In this document: positions 31,682 through 60,916 of the stretch, in pieces
Numbering within the stretch: position 1 is the stretch's first letter
Layout of the letters: each line of letters opens with the position of its first letter
Assembly (NCBI GenBank): GCA_026874595.1
Contig: CM049308.1
Coordinates: forward strand, 16,802,001 to 16,866,000
Length of the DNA: 64,000 nt
Direction: 5' to 3'
Source of the DNA: Sipunculus nudus
Taxonomy: Eukaryota > Annelida > Sipuncula > Golfingiida > Sipunculidae
Program-made: the position numbers and the translations under genes
Notes under the pieces: generated by a model
What the model was told of the DNA's origin: nothing
Databases searched by the model: none
What the model saw: only the letters and a program-made list of their open reading frames with translations

Positions 31682-31695
31682 GTTGCCATGGTAAC
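31682..31695. promoter_or_regulatory. RFX/X-box-like palindrome
   Basis: GTTGCCATGGTAAC fits the RFX consensus GTNRCC-N(0-3)-RGYAAC closely. Possible intronic enhancer site. Confidence 0.5.
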
Positions 31696-33191
31696 AAAGA
31701 AACAATTACCAGCTTCTTCACCAGACAGAAGCCACAAAATAAAACATTGTCACCTGGATCAGGTTGAAATAAATTTGCTAAATTTTACCAGATGGTTAAC
31801 AATTGCTGATAAATATTTTTAATCAGACCACAGCTAGGTTTAGAAAGTGAGCAGGTGGATAAAGTTTTCCTTTAAAATGATGCAGGCCTTTTTGGTTCTC
31901 ATAAAATATTTCACGGATGCATCATCAAACACCGGCATTCCTTTTCATGTAATATTAAGTTTTTCATTAAATTTAGGATTTGGCTAAACAGACGGCATTT
32001 AAACATTACATCTTACACTGTAAGGTAAACAGTAATTTTATTTCTTTTCAAAGGTATGATTTTTAAGAACAATTATGATCACAAATAATTAATTTGTGTT
32101 ACTTTTGGTATACCCATAATTTCCACAAGAGTCCTGTCATTGACATCTGAATTTTAGTGTGTACACAATGGCAGCCCCCAGAGAGGGAGAACACAACACC
32201 TTACTTCGAACATAAAGTTCAAGGACAGCATTCAGGCAATAATCTTTCTGGGGAAAGCTTGGATGGCTAGGGGACATGTATTGGCAAAGTTTAGACTGGA
32301 ATTATGCTTTTTTTATGGCCATGCTAACATTCTCAAAATATGGTAGGATTCAGACTTAATCCTGATTTGTTGTTTAAAACATATTATATCATGTCATTTG
32401 TTACACTTATATTTATAGCACAATCAAAACTAATTTATAATCTGGCCTACACCGGAAAATATATGTGCCAGGCATTTAGGTTTGGTGTCTAATTTGAATC
32501 CCTGATTCTATTTTGTGAAATCCCTTCATGTTAAATGTCATTGAATGTCATGCACAGACCTTGTTTGAGCAATAGCTGTAATTACTATAGAAAAAGCTAA
32601 TTGTAACTTGCAGATTTCCCTTTTTCCAGGTGAAATAATTAGCTCTCAAACCTACATGGACCTTGATTTTTATGTATCCCTGGAAAGCTATTTCATATTC
32701 CTTAAAATTTGAATTTTTTTAAATGACCATGAAATGTAAAGACCTCCATTAGTATGACTGTAATATTTGTTAGAGATTACATTTTTGCCACATTTGGGTA
32801 GTACATCATATGTAATTAATTATGTTAAGTATTAGAGGACTTCAATCAACAAACTAGAATACTTAATTATTTTTGCTAAAAACACTAGTCTTCAGTTGAG
32901 TGGATTAAGTGTGAGTAACTGTTCACCATTTGTTTCATGCATTATATGAATATAAATTATTCATTCTTGGAAGAAAATAAGTTAAATTACCATTCATGCT
33001 GCAATTTTTAGAATCTTTAGAAATAATTTTTTTTTTAGAAATAATATTTTTATATTGAATAAATAATTTATTTTCACTCAAAATGTTAAATTATTTCAAT
33101 GCATAATGTTTTGAATAATTATAACAACTACCTTTTAACTTCAGTAAATACTTATAGTTAGCAAGGTTTTGAATGTTTGGTGATATAATGA
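31696..33191. other. Putative intron 1; no gene seen
   Basis: AT-rich, apparently unique DNA. Nothing recognised. Confidence 0.4.
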
Positions 33192-33359
33192 TCATTATAT
33201 GGAGATATAGTCCTAAAGGAACGTGAGGAAGATCCGGATGACAGCCAGTACATCACACAGAGAGATGAGGATGCCTCACTCAGTTATGCTTCTGTTTTCC
33301 CAAGCATCTGCAGCAGTCCTATATTGAATATCCCTCACCATGAACACTTGTTGCATTGA
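33192..33359 (+). other. Coding-looking open stretch without a start codon
   Basis: Fifty-five open codons end at TGA (33357-33359). The stretch KEREEDPDDSQYITQRDEDA has acidic, non-AT-driven composition unlike surrounding random frames. Codons upstream of about 33210 look intronic. An exon of an unannotated isoform, a dead exon or a conserved regulatory patch are all possible. I recognise no domain. Confidence 0.2.
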
Positions 33360-34016
33360 TTATTCGGGAACCGCCCAATTCAGCAGATGTATAGGTATTG
33401 TCTGTTTGGCTACAGTAAACAGTTGGCCAGGCCAACGAAGGGACATCTTGTGGTTCTCATGGCTTGTCAGGGGAACATGGTCGCTTTATTTTGTTTGGCT
33501 GTATGGATTTTGTGCCAGATGAAAATATGAACTTGTTCCAGGAATCCATGATTGGGCTAATTTTGAGTATGAGTAATTCTGATTAACAGCGAAAACCAGT
33601 CATTACAGATAAAACAATTGTAAGAAAGGAAATGTCATATTGGCTTAGAATAGAGAAAAATCCACCAGGATCAAGCAAGGATCAGTAATGGTTTTGTAAA
33701 TGCCTCAAACTATAAAATATTTTGTTGCACTGTATTACTCCTTTGGGAAAGTGGAAACAACCATTTATATTTATTATGTACTCATATAAATGATATATCC
33801 GTCCAGAAAACAGTGTTAACAAGTAAAAAATGTGGACAACTGCATTATGTGGCCAGTGCTTTATCGGAACTGAGGACCCTGCTGCCCTAAGTGCATCATT
33901 GGCCTGAGTTTAGGATACTGTGATGTGCATTTGATATTGATGTGCAAGATAACATCTGCAAGTTATGCCCTTCTACCACTACCAGAGGCAGATAATGAGG
34001 GGCTGCTGAGAGTGTT
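33360..34016. other. Putative intron 1; no gene seen
   Basis: Moderately GC-richer than its surroundings up to about 33540. It includes a forkhead-type GTAAACA site near 33415. No supported exon. Confidence 0.35.
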
Positions 34017-34030
34017 ATCACCATGGCAAC
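34017..34030. promoter_or_regulatory. RFX/X-box-like site
   Basis: ATCACCATGGCAAC (reverse complement GTTGCCATGGTGAT). It is followed by GCATCTG, as is the site at 35164. Confidence 0.42.
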
Positions 34031-34463
34031 GCATCTGCATCACAAAGCACCAGATGACCTAGTTTTTGGCTAGGCAGTGAAAAAGCTTACTGACACACAA
34101 GGGTCTATTAGTAACTGGATAGGCAGTAACACATGTAAAAAGGGCATCAAGAGTCTTGATACTGCTGGTTTCTATGATTAGATAATGAACATTGCAGTTG
34201 ATCTTAAGATAAGCTAAAGTTAATTCAAAACAAGACCTAACTTGCAGTTTGAAAGTGAGTTCATTGAAGCAGCTATTTGAAACCTCTCTTGAGTTTGTTT
34301 CTTGTAATGGTGGGTGTGATTTATATATGTACATATGTATATTTGTAGTAATAATACCAATACATTTATAGCACCTAGAACACCTTCAAAAAGTTAATGA
34401 GGCCTTCAATGCCAAGACTTTTTTAAGGAAAAAAAAATATTAAAAAAAAACAATATTTTTAAC

Positions 34464-34499
<36 letters not shown>
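34464..34499 (+). repeat. (TAA)n microsatellite
   Basis: About twelve uninterrupted ATA/TAA triplets. Confidence 0.95.
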
Positions 34500-35163
34500 T
34501 AAAACAGGTTTCATTATGTATAGTTGGAGGGGTGACTTTTTAGGTGACTGCTATTAGAGTTAAAGATATTTAATTAGAAATCTTATTTTTCAGGGAAATG
34601 CCAAAGCTTTAAATAAATTTGAATATTTCAGATGAGAAAGGACAATTTAAATTAAAGGTCAATATAAAACAGTCCTTTAATACTCCTAAAATAAGTTGTG
34701 GTCCATTATTAAGGAGTTCACCTCAGCAGAGCTCCAGTTTTTAGAACAGCTCAATAAAACATTAAATATTAAGACAAAAAATTGGTTATTTAAATTTTTT
34801 TTTCAAATTTTATAAATGAATATAATTATTATATATAATTATATATCCAGTTAACAAATGAAGAGTATCTCACTTATATGATCATCACTTAGCAGTGTTC
34901 CTCCACTGTCCCAAGTAATGGTTTGAAGCGGTCCAATGGTTAAGAGTGTAATAAGAGTGTGTCCTCCACACATTGCGGAGGGTGGGATGACAGGGATCAG
35001 CTGACAGGGTTATAAGTTTATAACTGCGGTGATGGCCATGTTTTGGCTAGATATTGGTTAGTGAGAAAGTGGTAAGTGTGGAGAACAACCAAGTCTTGAT
35101 GCTGTTGAATCAATACCACACCAGTTCCAGCAGCAGAGCAGGCCTAGCCTGGCTGAAATCACT
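34500..35163. other. Putative intron 1; no gene seen
   Basis: Very AT-rich up to about 34860, then more balanced composition leading into the X-box at 35164. Confidence 0.4.
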
Positions 35164-35177
35164 GTAACCATGGTAAC
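35164..35177. promoter_or_regulatory. RFX/X-box-like palindrome
   Basis: GTAACCATGGTAAC, followed by GCATCTG. It shares ACCATGGYAACGCATCTG with the site at 34.02 kb. Confidence 0.48.
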
Positions 35178-35537
35178 GCATCTGGGATAATGTCCGGCAG
35201 TGGATGAGAAGCCCCCCTGTTCAGATTTGGTGAAGGATGCTATGCGACCTTCAGGGTTTATAGGCATTACAGGCTCTCCTCAGGCTCTGTCGACAGGATA
35301 CGGATTTCCACAACTCAAAACAGTATGTGTGCATGTAGTAGAGAGAGAAAGATGAATGGTTTTTTTTTGGGGGGGGGGAGGGGGAATATGTAATTGCCTA
35401 ATGATATCACGTTGTCCTTTGACCAATCAATATTATTAAGAAGGAATTTTGGAAAGAATGATGTAGAAGTTATTGTCAGTGACATATAATTGAAGACAGG
35501 TCGTTAACTTCATCCCATCCCTGAATTGGGATTATAA

Positions 35538-35553
35538 GGGGGGGGGGGGGGGG
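35538..35553 (+). repeat. G16 homopolymer
   Basis: Sixteen consecutive G. A shorter G-rich run (GGGGGGGGGGAGGGGG) lies near 35369-35384. Confidence 0.9.
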
Positions 35554-37166
35554 ACAGGTGATTAGTAATAGATAAATATGCCTGATTCAGGGATCAGACA
35601 CCAGTGATAGATAAAGATACTTGCTTCTAAACTGCTTTTGGCTTCAGCTTTAAGCGTGACATTTATCTTTCTGTGTCAGCAGACAGGAGACACCAGCAAG
35701 TGCCTTTTCTACTCCGTAATAAACCATAAAAATGTAATTAATGAAGTTAAGTTGCTGTTACACTTAACATGGTACCAGCAAAGACTTAGTTGTATAAAAA
35801 ATGCATTTTGTTACAAGCTTCTGGACAAATTGCTCTTCTCTGCCTTGTAGTGCATGAACATTCTTTATATAGGTTTTATGACTGATGGCGAATATTTATT
35901 AGAAAAATTTCCCTATGAGCATTTTGTCTTGATACCATGTCTAAATTAAAATTCACAATTAGTGTTAAAAAAAAAGAGAAAAAGAAATTTATCATATTGT
36001 TCTCTTGTTTTCCATGGACCGTAGTCCCACATAGTTGTAAAACAAATATGAAAAAAAAAAAAATGAAAAATAAAGATAATTGAAGAAAGATGACTGTCAT
36101 TAGGGCATTGTTTGATACTACATATTTAGTTATAAACACATGAGACACTTTCTGAGATAAATTATTGTAAAATTAAACATCAGACAAAAGAAATTTTTTG
36201 GAAGTATTAAAAAATTAGATATTCAGGCCATTAAGCATCAGAATTATAGTTAACTACATTGAAAATGTTTTTTATCCCACTTTTATGAATATGAAAAAAG
36301 TATTGTATAGAAGTCTTCTCAATTGTGATAAGCATATGTTTATACCAAGGAGGTTATGTTTATATCAATGTTTGTGTATTTGCAGGTTTAATCAGAAAAA
36401 AAACCTCATTAGACATTGATTCACCAATAAAGTAATCCACTGTAGTAATATAATGATCAACATCTTTTGCCATTTTCCTAGATTTTCCACAAAATTTCTG
36501 AAACAGGAACGTAATTGGGCCACTGATCTAATAAACTATCTAGATGTGGTGTTCAGTGTATAAAGTATCTTGTAACAAGATTCCTCTCCTCCAAATACCT
36601 GGAAATTAGTTCTTTAGTTTATTAAATTTATTCATTATTATTGTTTAATCCTTCTAATAAAAAAAGCCAAGGCTGGACTTTTCAGATTGGCAGAACAGTT
36701 AAGCTGTGGATATATTTATACATGAACCAATTACTAAGCATTGCCCAGGCAGCTTTAAGTTTCATATAGATACAAACAGTGGATATGTGTTTGACTGGAA
36801 GCCTTTCTTATAGATCAGTTTCAGGTCATCTTTAGCTCTGAGAAATCAGCACCCTAGCTGACTCTGCTTGAACTGTCAACACGGAGCAAGTTGTCAGGCT
36901 TCGGGTAGATCTGTTTGACTGGCTGTCTAACACAACCCATGATATTCTGCACATAATAGTTGCCTAGTTAATTACAAGAAATGGGTTTGAATTGGCCAGT
37001 AGTTAGTGATCCATCAATATAGGCAGGGCAGGCCCTGTCCCTTGATGTACAGTAGTTGGGATTGGTAACAGCACTGCTTGAGTTGGAGTAGATATTGAAT
37101 TTCAAATTGACCTACTGGGGAGATCACAGCTTGCTGTGGATGCAGCAGGAACCACTTATGATGATG
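35554..37166. other. Putative intron 1; candidate conserved non-coding DNA, no gene seen
   Basis: From about 36700 the composition becomes less AT-biased and lacks repeats, which would fit conserved regulatory DNA. This is only an impression. No exon supported. Confidence 0.35.
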
Positions 37167-37180
37167 GTTGCCACAGCAAC
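37167..37180. promoter_or_regulatory. RFX/X-box-like palindrome
   Basis: GTTGCCACAGCAAC is two perfect GTTGCC/GCAAC-type arms with a 2-bp centre. A second, weaker site (ATCACCATGGCGAC) follows at 37190-37203. Confidence 0.5.
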
Positions 37181-37189
37181 AGTTGTTAC

Positions 37190-37203
37190 ATCACCATGGC
37201 GAC
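37190..37203. promoter_or_regulatory. Weak RFX/X-box-like site
   Basis: ATCACCATGGCGAC, ten bases downstream of the stronger palindrome at 37167. Confidence 0.35.
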
Positions 37204-37829
37204 ATGATGCTGCAGCATGATGGCTGTAGCGGCTGTGTCTGCTGTGGCAGATTGGGACCCCAGGAATGACAGGCTCATTTGATTGGTCAGTATTGATAGG
37301 CTTTGGTAGGATAATTCAATTATCATTCACCTGCCTAGAATAAATTTACCCAACCACACACTGGAAATAGGCAGGGGTGACAGTGAGAGGTCAAGATTGA
37401 CCAAGTCTGGTGTGTTCCTGACTGCCATAAAATACGATTCAAACTGAAGGTGATAATGCCATGCATCGGCTCTCATGGACCCTTCATGGTGGTATGTTGA
37501 CTTATCATATGCTAAAATTTCTCATACCTACCTGTGCACTTTGAACAATGCTAGTTCATGGATTTACTTTTCATCACTTTCTATTGTGTGTTATATATAT
37601 AATATTCAAACAATTCCAAAATTGTGTTGTTTTTTTTATAATCTGGTCTCTGGGGCACATTTTATGGCATATATTGGATGACATAGCTGTGGCTACCATA
37701 ACCATTATACTACATGCTATATAAATGGTGAATTGGTTACTTCAAAACTCACATTTAAGTAATGGTTGTTTCAAAAGCAGGAAATGCCATACAATTGGAT
37801 CCTAAAGGGATCATCACAGGGATAAATGA
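37204..37829. other. Putative intron 1; no gene seen
   Basis: Balanced composition to about 37450, including AATTCAATTATCATTC, then AT-rich. No exon supported. Confidence 0.35.
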
Positions 37830-38100
37830 AAATTCTCCTTTTTCCAATGTTTAAATTTAAAAACTGAATTCCAGTCTCCTGAAAAAAATTTAGGTTTCTC
37901 AATTTTCCCAGGACAGACTGGAATCCTCTTTTTTCCCAAAAGAATGAGAATTCTCATTTTTCCAAGGAACATCAAGAATCTTTTCAAATCATTTTTTTTA
38001 TTTTCATTTTTCCTGGGAAGAATGAGAATTCTCATTTTTCCTGGGAAGATGCTGGATCTTGCCCGGTGATCATTCTTCCCTTGACATATATATATTCATA
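37830..38100 (+). repeat. Short internally repetitive dispersed repeat
   Basis: The motif GAGAATTCTCATTTTTCC and variants recur several times (around 37830, 37945 and 38030). The last copy with its right flank matches 2.64-2.74 kb. Each motif is a palindrome (GAGAATTCTC). Confidence 0.6.
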
Positions 38101-39959
38101 CCAAATAGTACATCTGTAAGTTTTATGTTTGTTACTAAATTCCTTGTTCCCAGGTCATAAGTTCTACCAAAAAAAAAAGTAATTATGTTTTAAGAAAAAT
38201 TTGAATAATTGTTCACAATAACTCCTTTTTGTTGGGATACATGTAACCTTCATTTCATATACTTTATTTTTTCATCATCTGCTACATTTTGTGTCACACA
38301 AGCCTGTTAAAAAGTGTGATTTGGTACATGGTGTATCAAACATGAGTAATTCTAACAAATAGCAGAGTCGGCATAATACGGAGGTAGCCTTTTAAATACC
38401 AGTGAGAGCATAACAGGTGTAAAGGCAGAGATAAGCCATCAGAACTAAATGAGATACCCTACATGCCACAGAATCACATTGCACTTGATAAGACTGAGCT
38501 TGGTGTTACCGTAGTTATTCTACTGAACTTAACATTCTTTAAAAATGAGATATTAAAAAAGTCCTTATCACCTCAATATTTTGCTTGTATAATTAACAAA
38601 TTGGGTGGTGTCCAAATTTTCAACATTTCTCAGAACTGATCATTAATCATGTCTAAACTGTGCATTCATAGAATGTGGTAAATGGTTAAATCTAGTTAAC
38701 AACATCATTTATAAGGAATGAAATGTGAAGTATTCACAGTTGAACACAGTTATTTATTTATTTAGAACGATCACATGTGCACAGTTTAAAAATACAGAAA
38801 ACATCCACATATAACAGGTTACAAACTTAACAAAGCTCATTGAGATTTTGATATTTTGAATTGGAATATTACTGGTTCTTCAAAATCAACTATTCAAGGT
38901 TTTGAAAAAAAGTCTGATAAAAGCTATTGTATGGTGCATTTGTTTGACACCTTTCCTTTAGTGCACTGAATATTAATTGAATGTGCATGCCAGGTAATAT
39001 GTTGGCTGTAATTTATTCTTGATTTGCCAGTCATGGTGCAGTAACTGAGTAAGACAAAAGATAATAAGATAGGTTTTTAAATAAATAAGTATGAATTTGA
39101 CATGATGATATACATGTATGGTAGTCGTTCTCATACTGGATTCACTGCTCAGCTATGTGCGCTTTAAGAATGTTACCTTGTATGTGATTAAGCATTGTAT
39201 TAACTGTTGATTAAATTCTGTTGTATATATTTAGTGGACTTAGTTTGTTGGTACATGTTTTGCCTCATGCATTGCAAGGTTTGTTAAATAAGTGTAAAAA
39301 GGGCAGCACTTGTTAGTAAAAGTAATGTCTTAGAATTTTTGAGATATGTGATTTAGAGGGGTATCAGGAATTTGGCAAGAAGATTTGTGCAGGGTAAAAA
39401 AAATTGAATGCATGAAGAGTTTACATATTTTTACTTAAGATGAATGTCCACAAAAGAACTGGTATCATGTAAGAGAAATTTCTGAAAAAAAAGTGTTTCA
39501 TTTTTGGGACTGGATGATGTAATGGCTCATTATAAATTAATGTACAGATATATTAAGTGAGTGTAAAACCAGTTATATTATACAGGGAAGTTTTTAATAT
39601 GATTTTAATGCACATTCCCATGTCATAACATTGTCTCCTCCTCTCATTTTCTCTCTCTCTTTCTCTCTCTCTTTCTTTTCTCTCACCATTTGTGGTTTTG
39701 TTCAATCCAGATAGAATTCCAATTTTGTCTGGTTCAGTTACAAACTGGACCAGATTGTAAAAGATCTGTGATTTGACAAGTAATTTATGAATTATATATA
39801 TAATTTGATATAAATATATTTATATAATATATCTCTCATAAATAACTTCTTTAATTAACTCTGACATTAATTATATATATATGATATAATTATAATTATA
39901 TAATATATTTCTCATAGAAGTAAATATGAGATTTATAAATATGATATCTATTATATAAG
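38101..39959. other. Putative intron 1; low-complexity stretches only
   Basis: CT-rich tract at about 39637-39690 and an AT-only tract at about 39790-39960. No gene or clear element. Confidence 0.45.
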
Positions 39960-40066
39960 TACAGTTAAACCTCCCCCAATGACCATCTCAGTTTAGCAAC
40001 CACCTCAAAATAACAACCACTTTCATGTTGCCATTGGTGGTTGTAATTTTGAAGTTTCACTATATC
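39960..40066. repeat. Small MITE-like repeat (CAGTTAAACCTCC family)
   Basis: Starts ACAGTTAAACCTCC and ends GAAGTTTCACTAT, roughly inverted. The body is AACCACCTCA / GGTGGTTGT repeats. Related ends occur inverted at 47.79-47.84 kb (AAGGTTTTACTGTATA). Confidence 0.5.
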
Positions 40067-40084
40067 TTTATACAAAAGTTCTGA

Positions 40085-40420
40085 AGTGTATGCTTCCGCA
40101 TATTGGGGGACATTGATTTGGGTTTGCCCGTCTGTCTGTGTGTCTGTCCGTTCATCAGGTTTTCTTCCTGTGCCATATCTTACCTAAATATTATCTGATT
40201 TCATTCAGATTTGGCTCAGTGATTGCTCTCATGCATACCTTGGAGTGTCTGTCTGAAAATTTATCATCACCAGCTCTAAAAAAAAATGTCCCCATTTGTT
40301 TTCGATTCACAACAAATTTATGACATGTGGAGACATCTTCAGGGGAAAAAAAATTAAAACATATTCAGAAGGTAAGCAAAACAGGGGACACAGATTCCAC
40401 AAATTTGCTTGTTATTGTTG
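40085..40420 (+). repeat. Dispersed repeat, GGGGGACATTGATTTG family
   Basis: The left part has ATTGGGGGACATTGATTTGG followed by a GTCTGTCTGTGTGTCTGTCC run; the right part has ACAGGGGACACAGATTCC. The GTCTGTC run after a conserved head resembles families A, B and E. Only one copy is visible here. Confidence 0.45.
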
Positions 40421-42573
40421 TCCCTATGTAATTTAAATCGTGAACCCTCTGTATTGATAGAGGTCCTTGTCCATTGTATGTGTCCTTAGCTTCGTTAATT
40501 CTGTACTTGACCCTATATTTAACACGCCAAGATAAATCCATACTTTGCAGCTTTTGGATTGTCTGGGGGTATAATGTCAGCTGAATATTTTCTAATCAAG
40601 GGGCTTCCTTAATGCGTTCTTAAGTGAGAATGACCACTAATAGATGTTCCAGTTAGTTCAGAAAATCCAATTATTAACAGACCAATCAGCTAACAGGTCT
40701 ATTCAGGCCCGAGAGGTCACTGATTTTCCTTAGATATAATCCATTTTAAATGCTTCGGAGTGACGAACTGCACCGTAAGAGTGGTCAGCCATTTGGTCTG
40801 TAATTGCATTATGTGCAGTGTCAAATATAGCATCCTCAGGATGTCAGTTGTTAGGAATACTGTACAGATTCAGCAGACTAGAATCTCTTGATAAAGTTCA
40901 GTCCGATGCAAAAAAGGTACCTGTGTTTATTTTATTTGAAAGTTTCCCTGATTTCTGAAGAGGTTATGACCAAAGTGTCTTAGAGGAATGACTGGTTCAA
41001 AGCCGAACAGTTATGTGTTAAACTGTTAATAGTTTTTTATTTGTGCTCTGTTTTAAAACATTTTTTATATTAATTCACATTTTTCATAATACAAAAAGCA
41101 CACAAGTCATTTCAGCTTCTGTAGTATAGATTATAATTAATAACAAAGATTTGAAATCTTAAAAGTGAAAACCTGACATTATAAAGTAAAAGAGTTCACT
41201 GAATGTAATTCACAATATGGTAGTATCTTTGACATTTTCCTTTCTTTGAAAGTCTTCTGAGCAGGCCAACAGAAAATTGGTCTGTTGAATTGACACTCCT
41301 TTTTATCTTTGGGGGGGGGGGGGGGCGAATGAGCACTCAGTCCTTGATAGTATAGTTGCACATTTGTGGTTTAAGCAAGGAGTAATTAACTTTTTCTGCC
41401 ATTTTTAGTATTTTTTTTATTTAATTGCTATAGCATCAAGTTAAACCTGGGTCATATTAGAAAAGAAAAAGTGATTACAATCTTTGCTGTAGCTGGCACC
41501 CTCATTTCATTATGATATACAAATGGTGTTACCTATAATATAATGGGCTACTTAAGGCCCATTGTTTCGACAGAGACTCCTTTATAGTCCTCGCGGTGAG
41601 AAAGCCAATCAAGCATGCTGTTGCTATTACTGTCAGGATCAAATATTAATAAACTAAATGGATTGTGATTGGTTGAGCTGCTTTATTTGAGAGAGCGTTA
41701 AAGAGGCAGTTTGTGTGACTGGTAAGGTACTTATCTCTACCAGATAGGAATTAGACAGCGATGAATAGTTGTTTCTCATAGATAATTTGATATTAGTGCT
41801 ACTTTTAGATATGTCTGGCTCCTGGGATAGGAGTACTTCAGCTTTGATTGACAGCTACTTGAATTCTTAGTACAAAGACCATGATGTTCCAATTGATTGA
41901 TCTTTTTTATTGCTTAATATTTTATTAATACTCTTCCACTCAAACTTCATGCCATAACTTGTAATGAATTTTATGTCTTAGCAAATAGTATTCAGCATTG
42001 TATTCTGTGGCTTAGAAAATGATGGCTCAGTAAGATTTGTGCTGATGTTACTGTATGCATGCTAAATTCCTGAATGGTACATTATGATCATACAACCTGG
42101 CATGTTTGCATAGATGTAGCTTTTTGTTTTGTAACCTTCATTGTTTTGATTTTTTTTCTGAAGTGCTGGTACTGCTGTTGTTAGAGCTTTGATGATTTTG
42201 CCAGCTGACTTTATTCTGTACATATAAAATGTGAAATATTGGAATATGTTAATAATGGCAGGAAATAACAGAGCAAAGTCCAGAAAACATATCTGACAAC
42301 ATGATACATATACATCTTGCATGTACAGAAAGTTCTTTTTAACTGGTGGCCAAATAAAATGTGTCCTGCCCGGTGTAGCGTGAAAAGTTCAGTATCTGTG
42401 TAAATACGAAGTGTTACTATTGTGCCCTAGACAGAGAACTGTGTGTTGTTAATTGTGGTTATGCACAAGGATAGACACACAAACGCCTGTATGCACCAGT
42501 GGCGTCCCCCCTAACAATACAGGCCCCCACATTTTGGGATGTTGTGTGGGGTGTCTTATTAGCTGTGATTACA
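40421..42573. other. Putative intron 1 / upstream flank of the coding exon
   Basis: G15 run at 41311-41325. No exon supported. From about 41550 to 41720 the sequence is less AT-rich. Confidence 0.4.
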
Positions 42574-42587
42574 GTTGCCATGGCAAT
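42574..42587. promoter_or_regulatory. RFX/X-box-like palindrome
   Basis: GTTGCCATGGCAAT, one base from the palindromic consensus, about 0.4 kb upstream of the FOXN coding exon. Confidence 0.48.
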
Positions 42588-42988: not shown

Positions 42989-43002
42989 GTTGCCATGGCA
43001 GC
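42989..43002. promoter_or_regulatory. X-box-like sequence overlapping the FOXN start codon
   Basis: GTTGCCATGGCAGC differs from the palindrome GTTGCCATGGCAAC at one base and includes the initiator ATG. It may simply be a Kozak context (GCCATGG). Confidence 0.25.
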
Positions 43003-43591
43003 AGACATGAGAGCGGAGGAGAGTGATGCGTCAAAGCGGGCTCGGCTTGTAGAGAGCTTGAGCGCCAGTTTCCCTGGTAGCGCGTTGTCACGGGCGCTGC
43101 ATGCAATGGATGAAGACCAGGAGAATGCGGAGGATCCGTTATCCAGTAGCTGCTTTGCATCCTTACGACTGGATAAAGTTAAAATAGAGGAGGAAGAGGA
43201 TGATGAGTTAACTAGTCTAGCTTGGTTACAAGACAATGATTTACTGAAAAACTTGAGGGCTGGAGAAGACCTCTTTGATAGCCCATCAGACGAACTCCAG
43301 AAGGAAAACGCAGGTGGAAACCAGGGTTATGCCCCCCAAACACATCCACCCCACGTTCCGTATAACCCTCAAAAACATGTGAACAGTAAACCCCCTTATT
43401 CTTTCAGCTGCCTCATATTTATGGCTATCGAGGACTCACCGTGCAAGAAGTTGCCAGTTAAGGATATATACTCGTGGATTTTAAACCACTTTCCTTACTT
43501 CCAAAATGCCCCAACGGGCTGGAAAAACTCTGTGCGCCACAACCTGTCTCTCAACAAATGTTTCAAAAAAGTGGAAAAGGAAAAAGGCCAG
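42995..43591 (+). CDS. FOXN3-like: FOXN2/FOXN3-type forkhead transcription factor, first coding exon
   Basis: This exon encodes residues 1-199 of a nuclear DNA-binding regulator. The start is the ATG in GCCATGG (42995), 6 bases after an acceptor (TTATATTCTTCAG, ending 42988). Open frame runs upstream only into the intron. Residues 60-75 are very acidic ([10 protein letters not shown]), followed by [15 protein letters not shown], a hallmark of the FOXN2/FOXN3 subgroup. The forkhead begins at about 132 ([18 protein letters not shown]), and helix 3 is [19 protein letters not shown] (175-193), carrying the DNA-contacting N-S-x-R-H-x-x-L-S residues. The exon ends with an intact codon (CAG) at a GTAGGT donor, inside the domain, so splicing to 60504 is needed for a complete forkhead. 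Vertebrate FOXN3 (CHES1) is a transcriptional repressor linked to cell-cycle checkpoint control; the role here is inferred. FOXN2 and FOXN3 are usually a single gene in invertebrates. Confidence 0.96.
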
Positions 43592-44824
43592 GTAGGTTCA
43601 TGTTATCTTAACTTTTATAACTTTCTTGAAATTTTTTGTAGTACAGAAAACAATCAATAAAAATCACTGCAGCATCCTTAATAACTTTTAATCACACAAT
43701 TAAACATTTCCACATGCTTACATTGCTCAGTATATTTTTGTTTGCTGATTTTAAATTAAAATATTTTTTTTACATCGGTTAATAATATTACCAATAAAGA
43801 TCACTAGAACAGCTAAAATTGAAATTCTAGACTGACCAATCAGTTGTTTCCTGTATTTTGTATTTTTTTTTTGTTATTTTGAAAAGTGATGTATATTTAC
43901 ATTATTTTGCAGGTTATGCATTAGAGTTTTCAAAGTGAAACTTCTTATTGATCAGTGTATGTTTGTATATTGTATGTCCTTAATTTAATTTCATGTTTCT
44001 TATGAATGAACAATGGGCACTTAAGGTTTTTTTTTTTTAAATAATTTAGGATTTTTACTGTACATACTGCTGTCATTGACGACAGTAACTACTGTAATCA
44101 CTAAGGCCTACAGGTCCAGCATTACCTCATAGAACCCACTCCAGTCAGTCCATAAAAATTTATAAAAGTCCTTAAAAGTCCTGGAAAAAAGACCCTTGAA
44201 TGTTATTTGTATGGCAGAGTAAAACATTGTATGTAACGTCAGATGTTAACTTGAATGAGCATACTCACTGACTCAGATAGCGGAGCGGTATATGACCCTG
44301 TAAGGTGGAGTACAAGTTACCTGATCAGTGGCCTGAAGCGCCTGGCCAGGTAATTGATTAATTAACAGTAGAATTACCATCCTCACCTCCCCGCTGTATT
44401 TATTGTGTTGACAGCCCTGTTCTACCCAGGGGATACAAGCTGCACTCCCGGTTACTATTAAAGCCAAACAGCACTATACACAGTTAGTGAATGGCAACAT
44501 TACTCCTAACCTGGGACACCTTCGTATTGCTAACGAACCACTGTGCTTGACCTGCAGGTTGATGAAGTACTTAAGTAAATTATAAGTATGCAATAACTTA
44601 ATAACTTGTTGATATAATACTGAAAAGCAAAATTAAAATAAATTTACCTTGACGGAAGTGCTTGTCACTGAATTTGCATATGTAAAAAAAAAATTATATT
44701 TTTCTTTATCTTTTACAGGGAAATATACTTTATTGTTCCCTGATTACTTAATACATATTTATAATTTTTAAATTCTTATAGTCAGTTCAATGAAAATATT
44801 GAACTTTTCATATTAATATATATG
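43592..44824 (+). other. FOXN intron inside the forkhead domain, first part
   Basis: Donor GTAGGT at 43592. AT-rich with no repeats recognised up to 44824. Translation into the intron would add about 20 residues before a stop (43660), so an intron-retention product would lack the wing. Confidence 0.6.
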
Positions 44825-45840: not shown

Positions 45841-45854
45841 TGCTGAAATATATG

Positions 45855-47785: not shown

Positions 47786-47851
47786 CCTACACTAACGGGA
47801 ACACCACTAGGTGGTAGAGTTATCAAGGTTTTACTGTATATATAGTTTGAA

Positions 47852-49987: not shown

Positions 49988-50001
49988 GTTGCCATGACAA
50001 C
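49988..50001. promoter_or_regulatory. RFX/X-box-like palindrome
   Basis: GTTGCCATGACAAC, within a GC-richer, repeat-free patch (about 49970-50290) in the FOXN intron. Confidence 0.45.
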
Positions 50002-52206: not shown

Positions 52207-52389
52207 TTTGTTAATAATATTTCCATTTTAGTATTTGCAGAGATTAAGATGTAGGTGATTTAAGATAGAGACATTACAATATGATTTCATTTCTCCAAGA
52301 CTAGTTTTCATTCAGGCCTTGAGTAAAGGCTTATGTTGCACCAACTTACCCAGCAGTAGGAGCCCACTTTTGGTAGCCCTACCACCATT

Positions 52390-52900
52390 TTTCATGTCTT
52401 GATTCCAGGGGAGACATGTTGTCAGTAGTTATCTTGTGAACACGATAACTTTTGAAGGGTCCATATTTACCTCCAAAATTGGAAACACTTATTGTTCCTA
52501 CCAAAATCTCGGATAAGTTAGAGACCTGGTGACCTTGACCCTCATCTTTAGGGTCAAATCTGCCAAAATGTAATATTTTTGTAAACCACATAACTTTATT
52601 TCACATTTTGTCCTCAAATTTAGTACACAATTGCTTATTAAGTATTGCAGATTTTCCTGTCACATTTGACACATTGTTTTAACCGAGTTCTTGAAATATT
52701 TTGGGTACTGGTGACCTTGACATTGATCTTCAAGGTAAAATTGATGCAATTTTAGGATTGTGACCTCAATAACTTTGGATATACTGAAAATTTTTTCTTC
52801 AAATTTGACACACTAGTTCCTACTGCCAAAATGTTGTAGGAGTTCAAAAAGCAATGACCATCTTCTAGATCAAATCTGTTAATCTAGAATCATTGTTTTG
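52390..52900 (+). repeat. Tandem repeat with GGTGACCTTGAC blocks
   Basis: CTGGTGACCTTGACCCTCAT (near 52522) and CTGGTGACCTTGACATTGAT (near 52703) share the following TCTT...AGGT sequence, and a third decayed block sits near 52850, giving a unit of roughly 150-180 bp. TTTGACACA...AGTTCCTACTGCCAAAAT also recurs. Family unknown. Confidence 0.55.
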
Positions 52901-54841
52901 AGATTGTGCATATTTTACTACTTACCTTTATGGTTTGCCCACAGGGGGGGGGGGACATATCTGTTTTTGCACTGTATTTCTAGTCTGGAACTGTCCATGC
53001 ATAAGGCTAAAGAATAAGCCAGAAGTCCTGATTTTTGTTAAGATATTATCTAGAGCAAACGTAAAAAAAATATCTTTATAAAATTTCATAAAATGATTAT
53101 TTGCTTTCAAAGCACTGTTGGATTTGTACCTCCTTTGCCTGGAGCCTTTATCACAAATGTGCACAGAATTTCCTAAATGTTTTACAGATTAAAGCAGAAT
53201 TTAGTCCATGCGAGTGCCATAAAAAGGATTCTTTAAATAAATAAAAAAAATTTATACAATAAAAAAATTTGATGATTATTTTTCATGCAAGGCAAAGAGT
53301 CAATTTACAATTCTTTTTAATTTTGTAAACACTGCTTGTACACCAGGCTTGGTTCAGGTTCAGAGGACTACAGCTGATCATGCCCATTTCCTGATCCAGA
53401 TAATGTGGCAGTGTCCTAAATGGTTGATTAATTAAGTGGTTAGCTCCTGCAAGAGGCTGCTAATGACTGCTATGTCATGATATTAGCTGCAGTCTCACAT
53501 GATCTCACACACACTGTGTTTATGGCAGGATACCATTAATTGGGACAGAAATTGATGAAGGTAAAAGGCCAGAGGGAGATGAAGGGGGATGTCCCAACTT
53601 GTATCACAAATAGTTACTTATGCGCATTGCTGACAATGTTCAAGATCAGTATGATGAAAGAAGTCTTTATTTATCAGCATAAGAGGTCTGGCCATACTCT
53701 GCCAAGGCCTGCAGTATCCTGCAGCAGAGATCGTCGGTCTCTCACTCATAGATTGCACTACAGATAGTTTTGTTCAACATGCAAACATGACCTCATAGAT
53801 ACACATTCATAAAATGACTTAGTTCAGTCTGACATGCCTGAAACTGAGCTTGTATTTATGAAATGTAAAATGTGAATTATTCCCTAAAATATTTCTTAGT
53901 AAACAAATATGCCATCACCTTACATCATAACAAGAGTGACCAGAAAAGTCTGGGTTTAAAATGTATGAGGTCAGCATGGCCCTGTACAAATCAGGGATAG
54001 AAATGTCCAGGGCTTCAAATGTTGCAGTCTTGGGGGCCAGAGTAAGTTAATGTAACAACAGTCCAGTTAGGATGATAACTCCGTCCTTCAGGACCAAAAG
54101 CAGTAGGATTTACCGTAGCTGTCAATAAATTGAAAAATAATTAAGAGAAGTAACTAAGTTTATGAAATGAAATGTTTCAAGAAGTCATGAATTAGTCATG
54201 ATCTGTTGTAAGAATTCACAGAAAGTTGTAAAAAAGTTTGAAAAAAAGTTTGAAAATTTAGAGCACCATTGGTTTTAATCTTTATGTGCAGCTAAAAATT
54301 TAGTTAAAATTAATACAAATATTTCAAGAAATCACAAATATATCTCTTTAGAAGCAAAAAAATCAAGTCACTGGGTGAAAAAGTGCTAGAGGAAGTGGCT
54401 TTGGAAAGAAACCCTGTAAAGGTCAAAAGGTTCAAAAGTGAAAATATCTTTGAAGAACTGACATATTATTAGTGCTAATTTCATACCAACTGATGAAATT
54501 TTTACAGAAACTTTGAAGATTATCTTCAGAAAAAAAAATTGTGGTTAAATGTTATAGCTGCTTATAGAAGAACAAGTGATATGTTCCTGTTTCAATAAAA
54601 AAAAAATATTTATTTTGATGACTCCAGGGAATCTGCTGCGTAAAGCACATACCTTTTTGGTCCAGGGATAAACATGATCATGTGACACATGCAGTGACTG
54701 GTTCATACATTTCCTGTATAACTGTTATAGATGATGACTAGTACTGTTCATCTGTCAGTGAATGCTCAGTTTATGATGACAATTTCTGCAGTATTTTGTA
54801 TCACATATATGGTATGTTTATCAACAGATATGTAAATAGAA
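52901..54841. other. FOXN intron; no gene seen
   Basis: G-run near 52943-52954. Otherwise AT-rich without recognised features. Confidence 0.4.
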
Positions 54842-55243
54842 TTAAGCTGTGTTTCCATTCATCCGTAAATCTTGTACGTCTCGTACGCAAAAAATCAGAT
54901 CCCTCTTTTTAAGATGAACTGTTTCCATATGTACGTTTTTATGGCTCCGCATGCGTATCCGCAAAAACGGACAGCATCGAAACGGATGGATGAGCGATTC
55001 ATCCGTTTTGCGGATGGCAAAAATGCCTACATTTCCCTACAGTGCCCCGGCGCCAGGTGTGATAAGACATATTGAAATTCTTCCGGCCTGTGGTCCTTGC
55101 AGTTTCAAAAGAGGCACATGAAAGGGTATCCGCAAGAAAAACGTCCATACTTATGGAAACAGTTTTTGCGGACTGCGTACTATGGAATGGACGTACGTCT
55201 TTTGCGGATACGTTTTTTGTTGATACATGGAAACACAGCTTTA
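54842..55243. mobile_element. 396-bp MITE with AGCTGTGTTTCCAT TIRs and TTA duplications
   Basis: The element spans 54845-55240, starting AGCTGTGTTTCCAT and ending ATGGAAACACAGCT, a perfect 14-bp TIR flanked by TTA at both ends (54842-54844 and 55241-55243). A 3-bp TTA duplication suggests a PIF/Harbinger-type MITE. The interior is unusually CpG- and CGGA-rich: ATCCGCAAAAACGG and CCGTTTTGCGGAT (about 54957-55015) form an inner hairpin, and TACGT/CGTAC blocks recur. Short open frames inside are not genes. Confidence 0.82.
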
Positions 55244-56422
55244 AACCTTTTGTCTAACATAATGTAGCTCTGTTGTACTCAAGTATCCATGAAAATTATA
55301 ATTTCGTAATAATTCCAATTATTCCAGTATTTAAACTTCACACGGTTTTCATTGGTCCCATCACAATTTTTATGTATTTTAGTACTTATAAATGTATTGA
55401 TTGTCATTTGGCAAAGATAATAACTTAATACTTTAAAACTCAGGTGTAATTTAAAATAAAATTAAAAAAAAAAACAGCAAAAGAACATAACTAACATTTG
55501 AGTAGGTCCAAATAAATATGGTAAGGTGTTTGACCAGTGATGTCATGGCATCAGACAGAGTTTCAAGATACCAACAACTAATGTCATCACCTTAAGTGAG
55601 TTATCTACCTCTGTCAGTATTTCATGATCACATCCTTAATTCATTATCCTCAAACAGAGGACACTGCCATCTGCTGGCGATAGAAGGCATGGATTTATAA
55701 GGAAAAGATGTCCTCTTCTCCATGATTAGATTAAAATCCTGTTTTTTGGTGAAAGAGAATTAACAACAGAATCTGTAGAATTTATCATAAAGTTTAAAGT
55801 AACTTTTAATAGTAATGGGATAAAATCATTAGAGGTTGAATAATCATCTTTAGATGAATGAGGGTTATCTGGCACTTAATAGAAATTCATGAAATAATAT
55901 AAAGGAAATTTCGTTTGTGGAATTTGTGCTTCTCTGTCTGAGAGGCTGTCCATACCAGTTTATACATCCAGAAATTGGGACTATATGTACTTGAGTATGA
56001 CAGCTGTATGTAATTAATGACCTTAAACAAGGTGGTGTTGGCTGGACTGCTCCTTAGAGACGGTTTCTCTTTGTGAATTAAACTAGCTATCCAGCACGAT
56101 TAGTTTCATGGTAATAAATGTGAGTCTGTAATTGAGTTATTGCAAGTTCTCTGAAGAAAGATGTGGCCAGTTCAGTGGATTTCAATAGCACTGAACATTT
56201 TGAATAATTTATATGGTTAGCTGGCTAATATAGAGTTGCATGTGGTTCCACCCATTCTTTGCTTCCCTGAAAACTTCTAAGTGTAATGGCTCATTTATAC
56301 ACTTTTTGTCTATTCCGGTTGTTAATATCATTGGAGAGCAGCGGTTATATGGGGCACCCATTCCCCAGACCATTTTCGACAACTGGGCTACAGTTCATTG
56401 GTTGCCTCAGCCTCCGTTGTTG
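55244..56422. other. FOXN intron; no gene seen
   Basis: AT-rich. Composition becomes more balanced from about 56330. Confidence 0.4.
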
Positions 56423-56436
56423 GTTGCCATAGTAAC
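56423..56436. promoter_or_regulatory. RFX/X-box-like palindrome
   Basis: GTTGCCATAGTAAC in a GC-richer, repeat-free patch (about 56330-56590) just upstream of A5. Confidence 0.48.
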
Positions 56437-56769
56437 AGGGTCTGCTATTGCCCCAACTATCTTGCTGTCTGTGCATTGGTATGGCTTGACAAAACTGAGG
56501 AGGATGGCTAAACACAAGAGCCACAACAGGATAGAAAATGAAAACCGGTGTTTGGTTTCCTGTAGTAGCCTGTAAAACAGTGAATCTTAAAGTTACTGCT
56601 ACTGCGTGCATAGGAAATCCTGACAGGGAGTCAGGGCTGCTGAGCTGTTCCATGGCTCCGTGCTAACAGTACACATAAATAGTTAACATTAAATTAAAGT
56701 GACATTTAAGATATTAAAGTAAAACAGTCCTCTTAATCTTTCCATTACTGAGATGGGGCTGTTTTTGTT

Positions 56770-59384
56770 AGCTCAGCTGACTATAAGTCATCTGAGCTAT
56801 AGTCGTGGTCCATTGTCCGTCGTCCGTCCGTCTGTCCGTCCGTCCGTCCGTAGATGAGGCACGTTTTGAAACCGTAAGATCTAGGAATCCAAAATTCGGC
56901 ATAATGTTAGATGTCCCCAAGATCTCCTACCAAGCCGAAAACTGGGTCTTTTCGACTTCGTTCCTTTGAGAAATTAAGGAAAAACCTCAATTTTTTATTA
57001 AAAACCTATTTTCACACTTCAGGACTGCCTAATATCAAAACCACTCATCTGTTTTTCCTCATATTTACCATAAATATTCCTCTATATAGTTCCTATGTAC
57101 ATTCAAGAAATTATGTCTGTATTATGTAATTTAAAAAAGTTGTGGACCCAAACATAATGCATTTTGTAAAAAATCAGGAAAGATATTTGATCACTTAACA
57201 CAAAACATGTTAAAGCTATGGACCTTTTTTCCAGTAATATAGCTTTAATTAATCAAAATTAAATTGTATACCAAAAATTAGATGAAAATCTTTTAAATTT
57301 TTAAAATATTAATAAAAATAAAAATTTGGTACCTTAAATTTTGCCCAACTTTGACCATGGCACGTTTTTTTCCTGTGAGTACTGTGGATTTAATTTTCAC
57401 AGCATGTTTTTGTTACCTTTTCAACTATTAACACCAAAAATTTGAAACCAGTTGATCAAAAACTGTAGATTTTATTCAAGTTTTCAAGCACCATGTAACA
57501 TATTGTTTACATCAAGCTAGTGTTATGCAGTTTGCAAGAGCTCAGCTCCCCAGCTTCAGCTCTTAGTTCCTTAAATTCGGCATACAGCTAGATGTCTCCA
57601 AAATCCCCTACCATGCCAAGAATTTGGTCACTAGGACTTAATACCTTCAAGATATTAATGAAAAACTTCATTTTTCCATTAAAAACCCATTGTTACACTT
57701 CAAGACTGCCTAATATCAAAACCACTGATCTGACTTTAATCATAAATAATATACATATTTTTCATTCTCTATGCACATGCCAGAATGATGTCAGTATTGC
57801 GTAATTGTTTTAAGTTATGGGCCCAAACATAATGTACTTTGTAAAAAATCAAGAAATATATTTACTCCCTTAACAAGGGGATTGCTGAAGCTAGAGATTT
57901 TTTGTCAGGGATGTAACATTATTTAATCAAGATTCAATTGAATTCCCAAAATTAGTTATGAATTTTTCAAATTTTATAAGTTATTAGTATAAATGTAAAA
58001 TTAATAACTTAAATTTTGCCCAACTTTGACCATGGCACGTTTGTTTCTTGTGAGCACTGTTGATATATTTTTCATATCATGCGTACATAAGGATTTCAGC
58101 TTTTAAGTTTAGAAAGCTGAAAGAAATTGGCCAAAAATTGTAGCTTTTATAAATGTTTTTATGAGACCCTGTCAGACTTTGGCTCTCTCCAGCCCCTCTT
58201 GAGTCACCTGTATGTTGACCTTGTTGAACTTTCAGCAAATTATGCATGCTTGAGGCGAGGCATACAGGGGAATCCAGGCAGCTTATGGCCAGCCACAGTT
58301 GATCCAGGTGTCCAACCCAACTCATCTAGTAGTTTTAACCAATTACATAACAATAAACAATAAATTAATAAATTTTTATTGGTTTTTAATAAAAAATTAA
58401 AGAAAAATAGAAAAGGAATTTGTTAGTTTATAATAACAGGAAATTAACTTGCAGTTACTGATGATATAAGAATCTTGTATCGATGGATAGAATGTCACGT
58501 ATTCCAAATAACACCATGCAGTCACCTATGGTATTTTTCAGTTCAATTTTAATGATAAAGAAGTAAATCATATCATTCATTACTAATCATTAGGGATCAT
58601 ATGATGGAAATTAATGATAGACAAAGATGCAGTTGATAATATTAATCTAGATTCCTACTGTGTCTAGTGTGTACATTGATGTGAAATTAGTCCAAAATGA
58701 ATTTATTACAGTTATTTTTTAATATAAATAAAAGCCATAAAACCAGGTACTTATGATCATTATTTAAATGTGTGAATTTTGTATATTCTGGATTCTCAAC
58801 ATCATTGTTTGGTGAAAACTGAATAAATACCAGTCATGGTGCGAATACTTTGTAATTGTATTTATATACGAATATGATTATGTACTCCATTATAAAATTT
58901 CTTGCATAAAGAATGGGAATTCAGGTAAAAATGAAAGTATATGAATACCAGTGCAAATACTTTCAAAATGTATTCATGAATGCATTCATGAATATATTCT
59001 TTAATATTATTTTAATAATCATTTCAGTTATATTTCATTTAAAAAAATCATATGATTATTAAAAAAAAAAATAATTTTTGGGACAATATTTGTAATTTTT
59101 TTTAATTAATAGTTAAACCCTTATATTATATATTCTGCTTATAAGTTATATGGCCAAGTCAAAATCTGTGTGACAATAGCACTCCATTTGTTAATAAAAT
59201 AAATGAAATAAATCCTCTTCCCTGTCTCCAAAGGTACTATCAAAATCAAACATAAGCTAAACAACAACAACTCATAATACAGCTTATATTTATTACCACA
59301 CAAAACCAGCATGTGCCTCATTTCTAAATAATATTTTTTTATCATATATAACAGCTGAGCGTCGTGACCCATAGGTCCCTTGTT
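56770..59384 (+). mobile_element. Family A element, copy A5 (third core type)
   Basis: Left end AGCTCAG (56770-56776) and CTGAGCT (56792-56798), then GTCCGTCGTCCGTCCGTCTG. Right end ACAGCTGAGCGTCGTGACCC, then ATAGGTCCCTTGTT (59351-59384). The core consists of two units (about 56880-57570 and 57575-58100) sharing ACTTCAGGACTGCCTAATAT-like, TTGCCCAACTTTGACCATGG and GGCACG blocks. This core type is shared with A3 but differs from A1 and from A2/A4. About 58150-58370 carries unrelated, less AT-rich DNA (GAGACCCTGTCAGACTTTGG), probably a later insertion. Confidence 0.75.
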
Positions 59385-60503
59385 CATATCACTTATAGTG
59401 TGGTCCTGTTGTACTGCAAGAGAGCAAGCCTCCCTTTGGTCTGTAAATGGTGTATCAGTTACTAATCATTAAATCAACACACAAAGCCTATAGAATAATT
59501 ACCAAGTTAACAGCCCTAGTTAATATCACATACATAAGACATTAAACAGCATTGTATACAAAAGCCAGAATACTTGTAAAAAAGTAAAAAAGTCCATCTG
59601 TTAACCGTTGTGATTGATTGTGTTATCTCACTTCAAAATCCAGCTGTATCATACATGCATATTTAAAAAATCAGTATTGTACATATATTTCAATAACTTC
59701 TGAGGTAAATTACTAAATAACTGAAGCACACTCATAGACAGATAGGGCGAGTGAACTATATATTGATGTATCAGTTCCTACAAGAGGACAAAAATGATCA
59801 TTGATGGCTGTGACAATGTTCAGTGCTGTCATCAACGACTGTAAAATCAGTGAGTCTCACAAGAATCTATATATATTATAAACAGAAAATAGGAGAGAAC
59901 TGGTATTTTCAGGTTTTATATTAGATAATTTGTATCACACAGAAAACATTGCATGTAGCAGTTCGCTGTCTCCATAAAGACCGTGCCATATTTGAATTAT
60001 TTTGTAATTATAGGGACACATACCTGCCAGACATTGTCATTAAAATTGATTTCACAGATTTTCCTGTTAAATCGTTGATGTTTCTTTTATAATCCCTTGC
60101 CTACAATTGATATTAATTTATTTTCTGTAATAATTAGATTTTATCATTAAAGGTTGAACAGATAATTATCATTAAAATATCTCTGTGTAGCCAGCCTTAG
60201 ACTGAGAAATACTACAAGAATATGAAAATACACTTTTTTTGGTATATATGCTTGATATAATAATGTTTTATCTTGTCAGTTTTTAGTTTCAAGTGAAGAA
60301 GATGACCACATCAGAATTTTATTTTCATTTGATAATTGAGATTAATGAATGATTTTATTTCATTTTTTTTTCACAGAGTCATTTAGCCCATGATGAAGGC
60401 CCACATTTCCCGACTTCATGGGGAAAACCCCTTTTCTTTGAAATTGAATGATTTTTTTTTATTTATATAATGTTCATTTATATATTTTGTATTTCTTTTT
60501 CAG
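59385..60503 (+). other. FOXN intron, last part, with acceptor at 60503
   Basis: AT-rich. The acceptor is TTTCTTTTTCAG (60492-60503) with a good pyrimidine tract. No other feature. Confidence 0.55.
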
Positions 60504-60658
60504 AGTATAGGTAAAGGGTCATTATGGTGCATAGATCCAGACTACAGGCCAAATCTTCTTCAGGCCTTACGAAAAACTCCTTATCATCCGTATCACCAGC
60601 TACAAATGCTTGCCAACCCGGGTCTACTCAATGGTCCCAACTACACCGTGCTTCCAGG
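60504..60658 (+). CDS. FOXN3-like: FOXN2/FOXN3-type forkhead factor, second coding exon (wing of the forkhead)
   Basis: This exon continues the protein in frame from Gln199: [20 protein letters not shown] then [32 protein letters not shown] is the conserved wing/beta-strand region of FOXN2/3 forkheads, and the ALRKTPYHP tail is also typical, so the domain is complete once spliced. The acceptor is TTTCTTTTTCAG|AGT and the donor CAGG|GTAAGT at 60658/60659, leaving a phase-2 intron (GG of a Gly codon). Residues 200-250 are encoded here. The next exon, with the C-terminal half, is not visible up to 64000. The preceding intron is 16,912 bp. Confidence 0.95.
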
Positions 60659-60827
60659 GTAAGTAATATCCTTGTTGAAACTCAGTACATATGTCAAATT
60701 ATTGCACAGATGTCAAACCATTCAGGAACAGGTCCTTAGGTTTACGTAAAACACTCAGTAGCTGTCCTCCTGTGTATATATGATATAAGCTTATACCATG
60801 CAAAGCTGCTGGGCTGATATGACACAG
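60659..60827 (+). other. Next FOXN intron begins (donor GTAAGT)
   Basis: Consensus donor GTAAGT at 60659-60664. No further FOXN exon is recognised before 64000. Confidence 0.7.
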
Positions 60828-60841
60828 GTTGCCATGGTGAT
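60828..60841. promoter_or_regulatory. RFX/X-box-like site
   Basis: GTTGCCATGGTGAT, identical to the reverse complement of the site at 34017-34030. Confidence 0.45.
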
Positions 60842-60901
60842 AGTTATTTTTAGCAGGTTGGCCAAGAGACAGGTGTGGTGTCTGGGGACCACCAAGCTTC
60901 A

Positions 60902-60916
60902 GTTGCCATTGGCAAC
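60902..60916. promoter_or_regulatory. RFX/X-box-like palindrome with 3-bp centre
   Basis: GTTGCCATTGGCAAC: perfect arms GTTGCC and GGCAAC around ATT, 61 bp after the site at 60828 and within the first 300 bp of the intron. It lies in a GC-richer patch (60790-61010). Confidence 0.5.

Follow-up and report, generated by a model that had tools for sequence, protein, structure and literature searches.

A cluster of X-box palindromes around a FOXN2/3 gene: a plausible RFX-dependent regulatory block

We analyzed a 64-kb stretch of genomic DNA (the window; C3:16802001-16866000 in an assembly of 1.43 Gb and 153 contigs) in which X-boxes, the palindromic sites of RFX transcription factors, cluster around the first coding exons of a forkhead gene of the FOXN2/3 type. 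Coordinates below are window positions unless a contig is named. The window has a GC content of 34.8% and a CpG observed/expected ratio of 0.30. The first coding exon of the gene (42989..43603, + strand) has a CAG acceptor immediately before its ATG at 42995, and an approximate 3′ end placed by eye from a GTAGGT donor. The forkhead domain (PF00250, E 1.4e-30) starts in this exon, and its remainder is encoded by the second coding exon (60504..60658, + strand; splice sites by eye). An acidic C-terminal exon like that of FOXN3 lies near C3:16,875,535, ∼9.5 kb past the window. The gene, therefore, combines a forkhead domain of the FOXN type with a FOXN3-like acidic C terminus, and we take it to be FOXN2/3 on the basis of likeness to human sequences rather than a tree. 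Across the genome, the FOXN exon had one full-length match only; because the next three best matches were forkhead domains at 49-52% identity, we count a single FOXN2/3 gene found. This agrees indirectly with the invertebrate origin given in the sequence-only reading, since vertebrates have both FOXN2 and FOXN3; the CpG ratio of 0.30, on the contrary, resembles that of vertebrates. The ATG exon seems to begin at an acceptor, which makes it probable that the gene has an untranslated exon further 5′ and would place the sites from 31682 to 42574 either upstream of the gene or in its 5′ intron.

A sequence-only reading of this DNA had listed ten X-box-like sites, and all ten (10/10) were present as it gave them. 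We scanned with a fixed RFX consensus, GTTRCC-N1-3-GGYAAC, using at most one mismatch as the main threshold and assigning no strand to any site. Seven of the ten fall within one mismatch of the half-sites at spacings of 1-3, nine within two, and all ten within three; the match is looser at 34017 and 60828, with two departures each, and at 37190, with three. Two sites are perfect: GTTGCCATGGTAAC at 31682..31695 (spacing 2) and GTTGCCATTGGCAAC at 60902..60916 (spacing 3), the latter with a CCAAT box (GCCAATAGG) a few bases on, which is reminiscent of X and Y boxes. Between 31682 and the start codon lie ATCACCATGGCAAC at 34017..34030, GTAACCATGGTAAC at 35164..35177 (one departure), a pair set 9 bp apart that consists of GTTGCCACAGCAAC at 37167..37180 (one departure) and ATCACCATGGCGAC at 37190..37203, and GTTGCCATGGCAAT at 42574..42587 (one departure), ∼0.4 kb 5′ of the FOXN start codon. 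The intron between the two coding exons contains GTTGCCATGACAAC at 49988..50001 and GTTGCCATAGTAAC at 56423..56436, each with one departure and the second outside an adjoining repeat (56760-59394). The next intron contains GTTGCCATGGTGAT at 60828..60841, ∼170 bp past exon 2, and the perfect site at 60902, ∼60 bp from it. Still in the same gene, an extra site within one mismatch lies 902 bp past the window (L049:902). A perfect palindrome that is not of the X-box type, GTTGGCCAGGCCAAC, is also present in the locus, at 33422-33436.

Two further palindromes were set aside. The one at 62868, a candidate eleventh site, sits in a repeat shared with another locus (L061). The other, GTTGCCATGGCAGC at 42989..43002 (one departure; absent from the earlier list), covers both the splice acceptor and the start codon of FOXN (GTTGCCATGG, in Kozak context). 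It is a start-codon coincidence rather than an X-box, and because it is exactly the FOXN start context, it should not count as evidence; counts are therefore also given without it. Such coincidences could in principle account for RFX-like matches more widely, since GCCATGG is a Kozak context and the coding sequence of a forkhead Ile-(Thr/Ala)-Met-Ala-Ile stretch reads ATC(A/G)CCATGGCGAT. A relaxed pattern gave four matches at other forkhead loci, of which three were forkhead coding sequence (L053:155, L055:161, and L058:170; in the forkhead exon, by eye) and one was a repeat copy. As an explanation of the cluster, however, coding coincidence is barely credible: the ten listed sites all lie outside the two FOXN exons found, and the four open frames over listed sites that were compared with Pfam had no match at E ≤ 1. 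We also rejected the idea that the open frames over the site-bearing islands are genes, since none of seven had a Pfam match above the cut-off (three sub-threshold matches, E 0.02-0.05). In their own right, the forkhead Ile-(Thr/Ala)-Met-Ala-Ile codons are a trap for RFX motif scans of forkhead genes.

The placement of most sites in less AT-rich patches was borne out for nine of the ten, whose local GC content reaches at least the 86th percentile of the region; it does not extend to 31682, at the 15th percentile and the sole listed site in AT-rich DNA. Nine exact sites elsewhere in the genome that had no related flanks had GC contents between 0.29 and 0.44, which do not exceed those of random pieces (mean 0.40); this indicates that the GC peaks are a feature of the FOXN locus and not of X-boxes generally.

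The region is unusually dense in sites. Within one mismatch, there are eight sites in 31-64 kb (seven excluding 42989) and none in 1-31 kb, compared with means of 0.42 (maximum 3) and 0.54, respectively, in 100 shuffles of each part. The earlier statement that the first 31 kb has no sites is accurate at this threshold; weaker forms do occur there, as GTCTCCATGGAAAC with three departures in a satellite. This satellite, with a unit of ∼337 bp, occupies 4787-8267, and the weak RFX-like palindrome belongs to its consensus unit (copies at 5196 and 5534). The eight sites in the 33 kb comprise seven with spacing 2 and one with spacing 3 (six and one without 42989), whereas a permuted and a reversed dyad had none at this threshold; allowing two mismatches, the RFX dyad matched 21 times vs. 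8 and 5 for these controls. Ranked among 180 permuted palindromic dyads, it came first at up to one mismatch (eight sites, followed by seven for the overlapping variant RTTGCC and then four).

Sequence sampled elsewhere was sparse in sites. At the same threshold, 201 kb of control DNA contained three, vs. the eight (or seven) in the 33 kb: none in the 31 kb upstream, one in the 30 kb downstream, one in 80 kb at eight other forkhead loci, and one in 60 kb of six random pieces (the pieces were 10 kb each, and the forkhead loci include 3,138 N). The sole downstream site is the one at L049:902, in the same FOXN gene. A binomial comparison of the 33 kb with the controls gave 1.7e-5, or 9.0e-5 without 42989. 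With two mismatches allowed, the forkhead loci showed no excess (RFX 9 vs. 13 permuted and 25 reversed), and the random pieces were barely in excess (10 vs. 7 and 8). A generally raised density at forkhead loci is, therefore, rejected at one site in 80 kb. Sites with spacing 2 have a genome mean of 1.08 per 64 kb, and this window contains seven (six without 42989). The description of a dense set, thus, stood up in the sequence sampled, where the local density exceeds the genome mean, the other forkhead loci, and the random pieces, as expected of a homotypic cluster whose bounds were drawn post hoc.

Dispersed repeats offer another source of palindromes, and we compared the flanks of the sites with each other and with the genome. 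Nine segments of ±200 bp were used, with 37190 and 60902 inside two of them and 42989 not included. No segment had a BLAST match to the segment of another site at E 0.05 (∼224 kb compared), and the flanks are unrelated, as had been stated, apart from the 34.0/35.2 kb pair; even here the common stretch is only 18 bp with one difference (the core plus GCATCTG). A composite element of X-box and CATCTG (34017, 35164, and L022) was rejected, since among 47 exact sites without related flanks it occurred at the exact position in one, L022 itself, as judged by eye. At E 1e-4, the nine segments gave no match to the compared sequences that was ≥60 bp long or spanned the site. Shorter matches concerned two sites. 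Three of them, 20-28 bp long (E 0.008-0.027), link 31682 with other loci, in one case (L010) with the match centred on the palindrome, and one of 23 bp for 42574 lies away from the site. In genome searches, 33900-35300 (covering 34017 and 35164) found only itself; 31500-37400 (five sites; best 40 of 259 candidates) had repeat matches only at 32081-32370, off the sites; and 56200-61120 (three sites; best 40 of 9,436 candidates) had them only at 56760-59394, again off the sites. Because only the best candidates were scored in these searches, low-copy relatives could be missed. The evidence on repeats, thus, comes from genome searches for eight of the ten sites and from the ∼224 kb comparison for 42574 and 49988. 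Taken together, flank comparison and genome searches argue against one repeat family for all ten sites, in line with the sequence-only reading: in the sequence compared and the candidates scored, flanks are shared neither between sites nor with other copies. The repeat in the FOXN intron at 56760-59394 (∼2.6 kb) has dozens of near-full-length counterparts elsewhere in the genome at 96-98% identity and, given this closeness, is probably a young mobile element.

The sites might still be remnants, aged and decayed, of dispersed repeats with an X-box-like palindrome in them. At least three families of this kind are present in the genome: one with ATCACCATGGCAAC (19 of 20 copies), one with GAGTACTCGTTACCATGGCAAC (323 + 326 at up to two mismatches), and a tandem family (L006/L009). 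The first is a dispersed repeat with GTCTAGAC-rich tails that accounts for 19 of 20 sampled C1 copies of the 14-mer (L029-L043 and L045-L048), as judged from flanking sequences, and extrapolating from 25 places among the 57 listed would put its copy number at roughly 4,000. The 14-mer at 34017 is the same ATCACCATGGCAAC, and its flanks differ. A second dispersed repeat has an exact X-box palindrome beside GAGTACTC and exists in many diverged copies (L007, L008, L012-L014, L018, L024, L078, L079, and others on C1); matches to GAGTACTCGTTRCCATGGYAAC at up to two mismatches number 323 + 326 = 649. When 73 exact sites of either pattern were compared (14 of GTTGCCATGGAAAC type included; L006-L009, L017, and L085 excluded, the last two being cut off-centre), 26 had related flanks in the compared sequences and 47 did not, a ratio that is biased because known GAGTACTCGTTRCCATGGYAAC-repeat copies were skipped when the 60 sites L067-L126 were picked. 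Nevertheless, with no long or site-spanning match to any of the nine window segments in the compared sequences, repeat matches among the scored candidates confined to positions off the sites, and 33900-35300 matching only itself, we consider a decayed-repeat origin of the cluster very unlikely.

The genome as a whole is strongly enriched in X-box palindromes, and their carriage by dispersed repeats is part of the reason. Matches to GTTRCCNNGGYAAC at up to one mismatch number 23,982, vs. 5,351 for a reversed control and 2,855 for a permuted dyad. For GTTGCCATGGNAAC, there are 768 + 793 occurrences vs. 4 + 5 for the reversed control, a ratio that is overstated because this control contains CpG. 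In the first 42.15 Mb of C1, exact GTTRCCNNGGYAAC occurs at 52 places, of which 19 are in repeat families, 24 have no related flanks, and 9 were unexamined or cut off-centre; the exact permuted dyad has 46 places in the whole genome, equivalent to 1.4 expected in 42.15 Mb. Outside repeat families, this part of C1, thus, holds at least 24 exact X-boxes vs. 1.4, a nearly eighteen-fold excess. Extrapolating from 24 to 33 per 42.15 Mb gives a rough figure of some 800 to 1,100 exact sites outside repeat families in the genome. Of 50 places with GTTGCC-N0-10-GGCAAC among the matches listed (repeats included), 25 have spacing 2, 10 spacing 1, 6 spacing 3, and 9 one of the other eight, and the preference for 2, 1, and 3 is as expected of RFX dimers.

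With so large a background, the window could be just among the densest of an uneven distribution, with no joint function of its sites at FOXN2/3, even if single sites function. The 23,982 matches to GTTRCCNNGGYAAC, with their excess over both controls, favor this account. The sparse nearby, forkhead, and random controls speak against it, as does the stricter pattern RTYRCCATGRYRAY. That pattern occurs seven times in the window (six without 62868) and at an estimated 0.47 per 64 kb genome-wide, from which just 0.23 genome windows with six or more are expected (from the estimated number of places); in the first 8.27 Mb of C1 (57 places), no 64-kb window has more than three. We regard the background account as possible, although somewhat improbable.

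The reading that we consider most likely, with about an even chance of being right, is a homotypic cluster of RFX sites that would regulate FOXN2/3. It builds on direct observations, namely the sites, their density, the absence of a shared repeat, the FOXN gene, and the RFX genes of the genome. The last include DNA-binding exons that are RFX1/2/3-like (L025) and RFX4- or RFX6-like (L026-L028), as named by sequence likeness; the trans factors, therefore, exist. Several results weigh against this reading. Three of the ten listed sites depart from the consensus at two or three positions, and the GC peaks need not be regulatory islands, given that nine exact sites elsewhere show none. At up to two mismatches, the dyad TGRCCT, whose half-sites are nuclear-receptor-like, tops RFX among the 180 dyads in 31001-64000 (25 vs. 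21). The bounds of the region were set post hoc, the locus was flagged after the fact, and with the whole 64-kb window as the unit the binomial value is 0.002 (0.006 without 42989). A Poisson model alone expects ∼19 genome windows of 64 kb with six or more spacing-2 sites and ∼3 with seven or more, and real clustering would raise both numbers further. Finally, the highest-scoring 8-mer when words of the region were counted de novo was GGTTGCCA; its score of 9.87 falls inside the spread of top scores from 40 simulated sequences (their mean being 8.20 and the highest 11.41), and we rejected unsupervised 8-mer enrichment as proof. The Poisson expectation, the post hoc flagging, and the unremarkable 8-mer test also count in favor of the background account. 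The cluster is, thus, solid for a consensus named beforehand, and a blind motif search would not have proved it.

On the homotypic-cluster reading, the non-coding X-boxes would form a unit of ∼30 kb that reaches from upstream of the first coding exon (or from the 5′ intron) to just past the second. The palindromes, grouped in several islands that are mostly richer in GC, would be occupied by RFX dimers (RFX1/2/3, possibly RFX4/6) and would enhance, or silence, FOXN2/3; perhaps RFX also holds the islands and the promoter together. Binding, the chromatin state of the islands, and the direction and tissue of regulation are predictions from the DNA sequence. We infer from the same features an RFX-dependent regulatory block at FOXN2/3, as the sequence-only reading had suggested; its observation is confirmed, and its interpretation appears plausible and partly supported. 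A broader picture joins an RFX-driven, multi-enhancer FOXN2/3 control region in a non-vertebrate to about a thousand exact X-boxes without recognised repeat flanks, as part of a non-coding X-box layer that predates vertebrates, while repeats separately spread several thousand RFX-like palindromes. We think this whole combination rather unlikely to hold.

If the sites are bound, FOXN2/3 would be under RFX control, and the locus would connect, in a concrete and testable way, two families of transcription factors that cilia and sensory cells already bring together. Moreover, the nearly eighteen-fold excess of exact X-boxes makes it possible to ask when the genome-wide use of RFX sites arose. A literature search of titles and abstract openings, with most subscription papers outside it, found no paper on RFX sites at FOXN2/3.

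Other observations concern the window and the genome at large. The window has broken LINE-type frames at 120-2037 (-) and 12416-14588 (+), in which reverse transcriptase (PF00078) is matched at 627-1388 (-) and 12416-13219 (+). On C8, matches to the forkhead domain form two arrays, at 34.66-34.73 Mb and 71.70-71.79 Mb, and most of them have open frames. Nine contigs (C60, C61, C62, C66, C72, C74, C75, C89, and C123) carry intact COX1-family genes with nearly equal scores and are probably bacterial symbionts or contaminants; C123, the sole one of them that was read, is bacterial, with a cbb3-type oxidase as neighbor. A fragment of mitochondrial COX1 has a short copy in nuclear DNA at C5:67852325 (L066), and among 11 COX1 matches no contig was recognised as mitochondrial.

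The sites and factors described here resemble several known systems. The X-box or RFX site, bound by RFX1-RFX7 and by DAF-19 in nematodes, is likewise a palindrome of 14-15 bp, GTTRCC-N2(1-3)-GGYAAC, and RFX genes are present in this genome too. RFX1 is also the methylated-DNA-binding protein MDBP, and ATCACCATGGCAAC and ATCACCATGGCGAC are the variants that CpG decay of its sites would give in a methylated genome; methylation is here suggested only by the CpG observed/expected ratio. X-boxes were reportedly found by Xie et al. in 2007 to be enriched in conserved non-coding elements of vertebrates. The two cases are alike in that X-boxes are numerous in a genome both large and depleted of CpG, here close to the gene of a developmental transcription factor, whereas the present genome is apparently non-vertebrate and the sites are known from one genome.

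In nematodes and Drosophila, X-boxes are described in the promoters of ciliary genes (PMC10393296, PMC2375033), while here the predicted sites are spread over 30 kb. The first of these papers also names the forkhead gene fkh-2 as a target of the RFX factor DAF-19 in Caenorhabditis elegans and reports that FKH-8, a partner of RFX in that animal, can be substituted by mouse FOXN4 (PMC10393296). FOXN2/3 belongs to a different subgroup from FOXN4 and is described as a cell-cycle gene in arthropods and onychophorans (PMC9269926). A candidate mechanism for several distant RFX sites round one gene comes from multiciliated cells of Xenopus, where Rfx2 is reported at promoters as well as at enhancers, with a proposed role in bridging the two, and where its targets are cilia genes, together with Foxj1 (PMC5245798). 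In the case described here, by contrast, the putative target gene is itself a forkhead gene.

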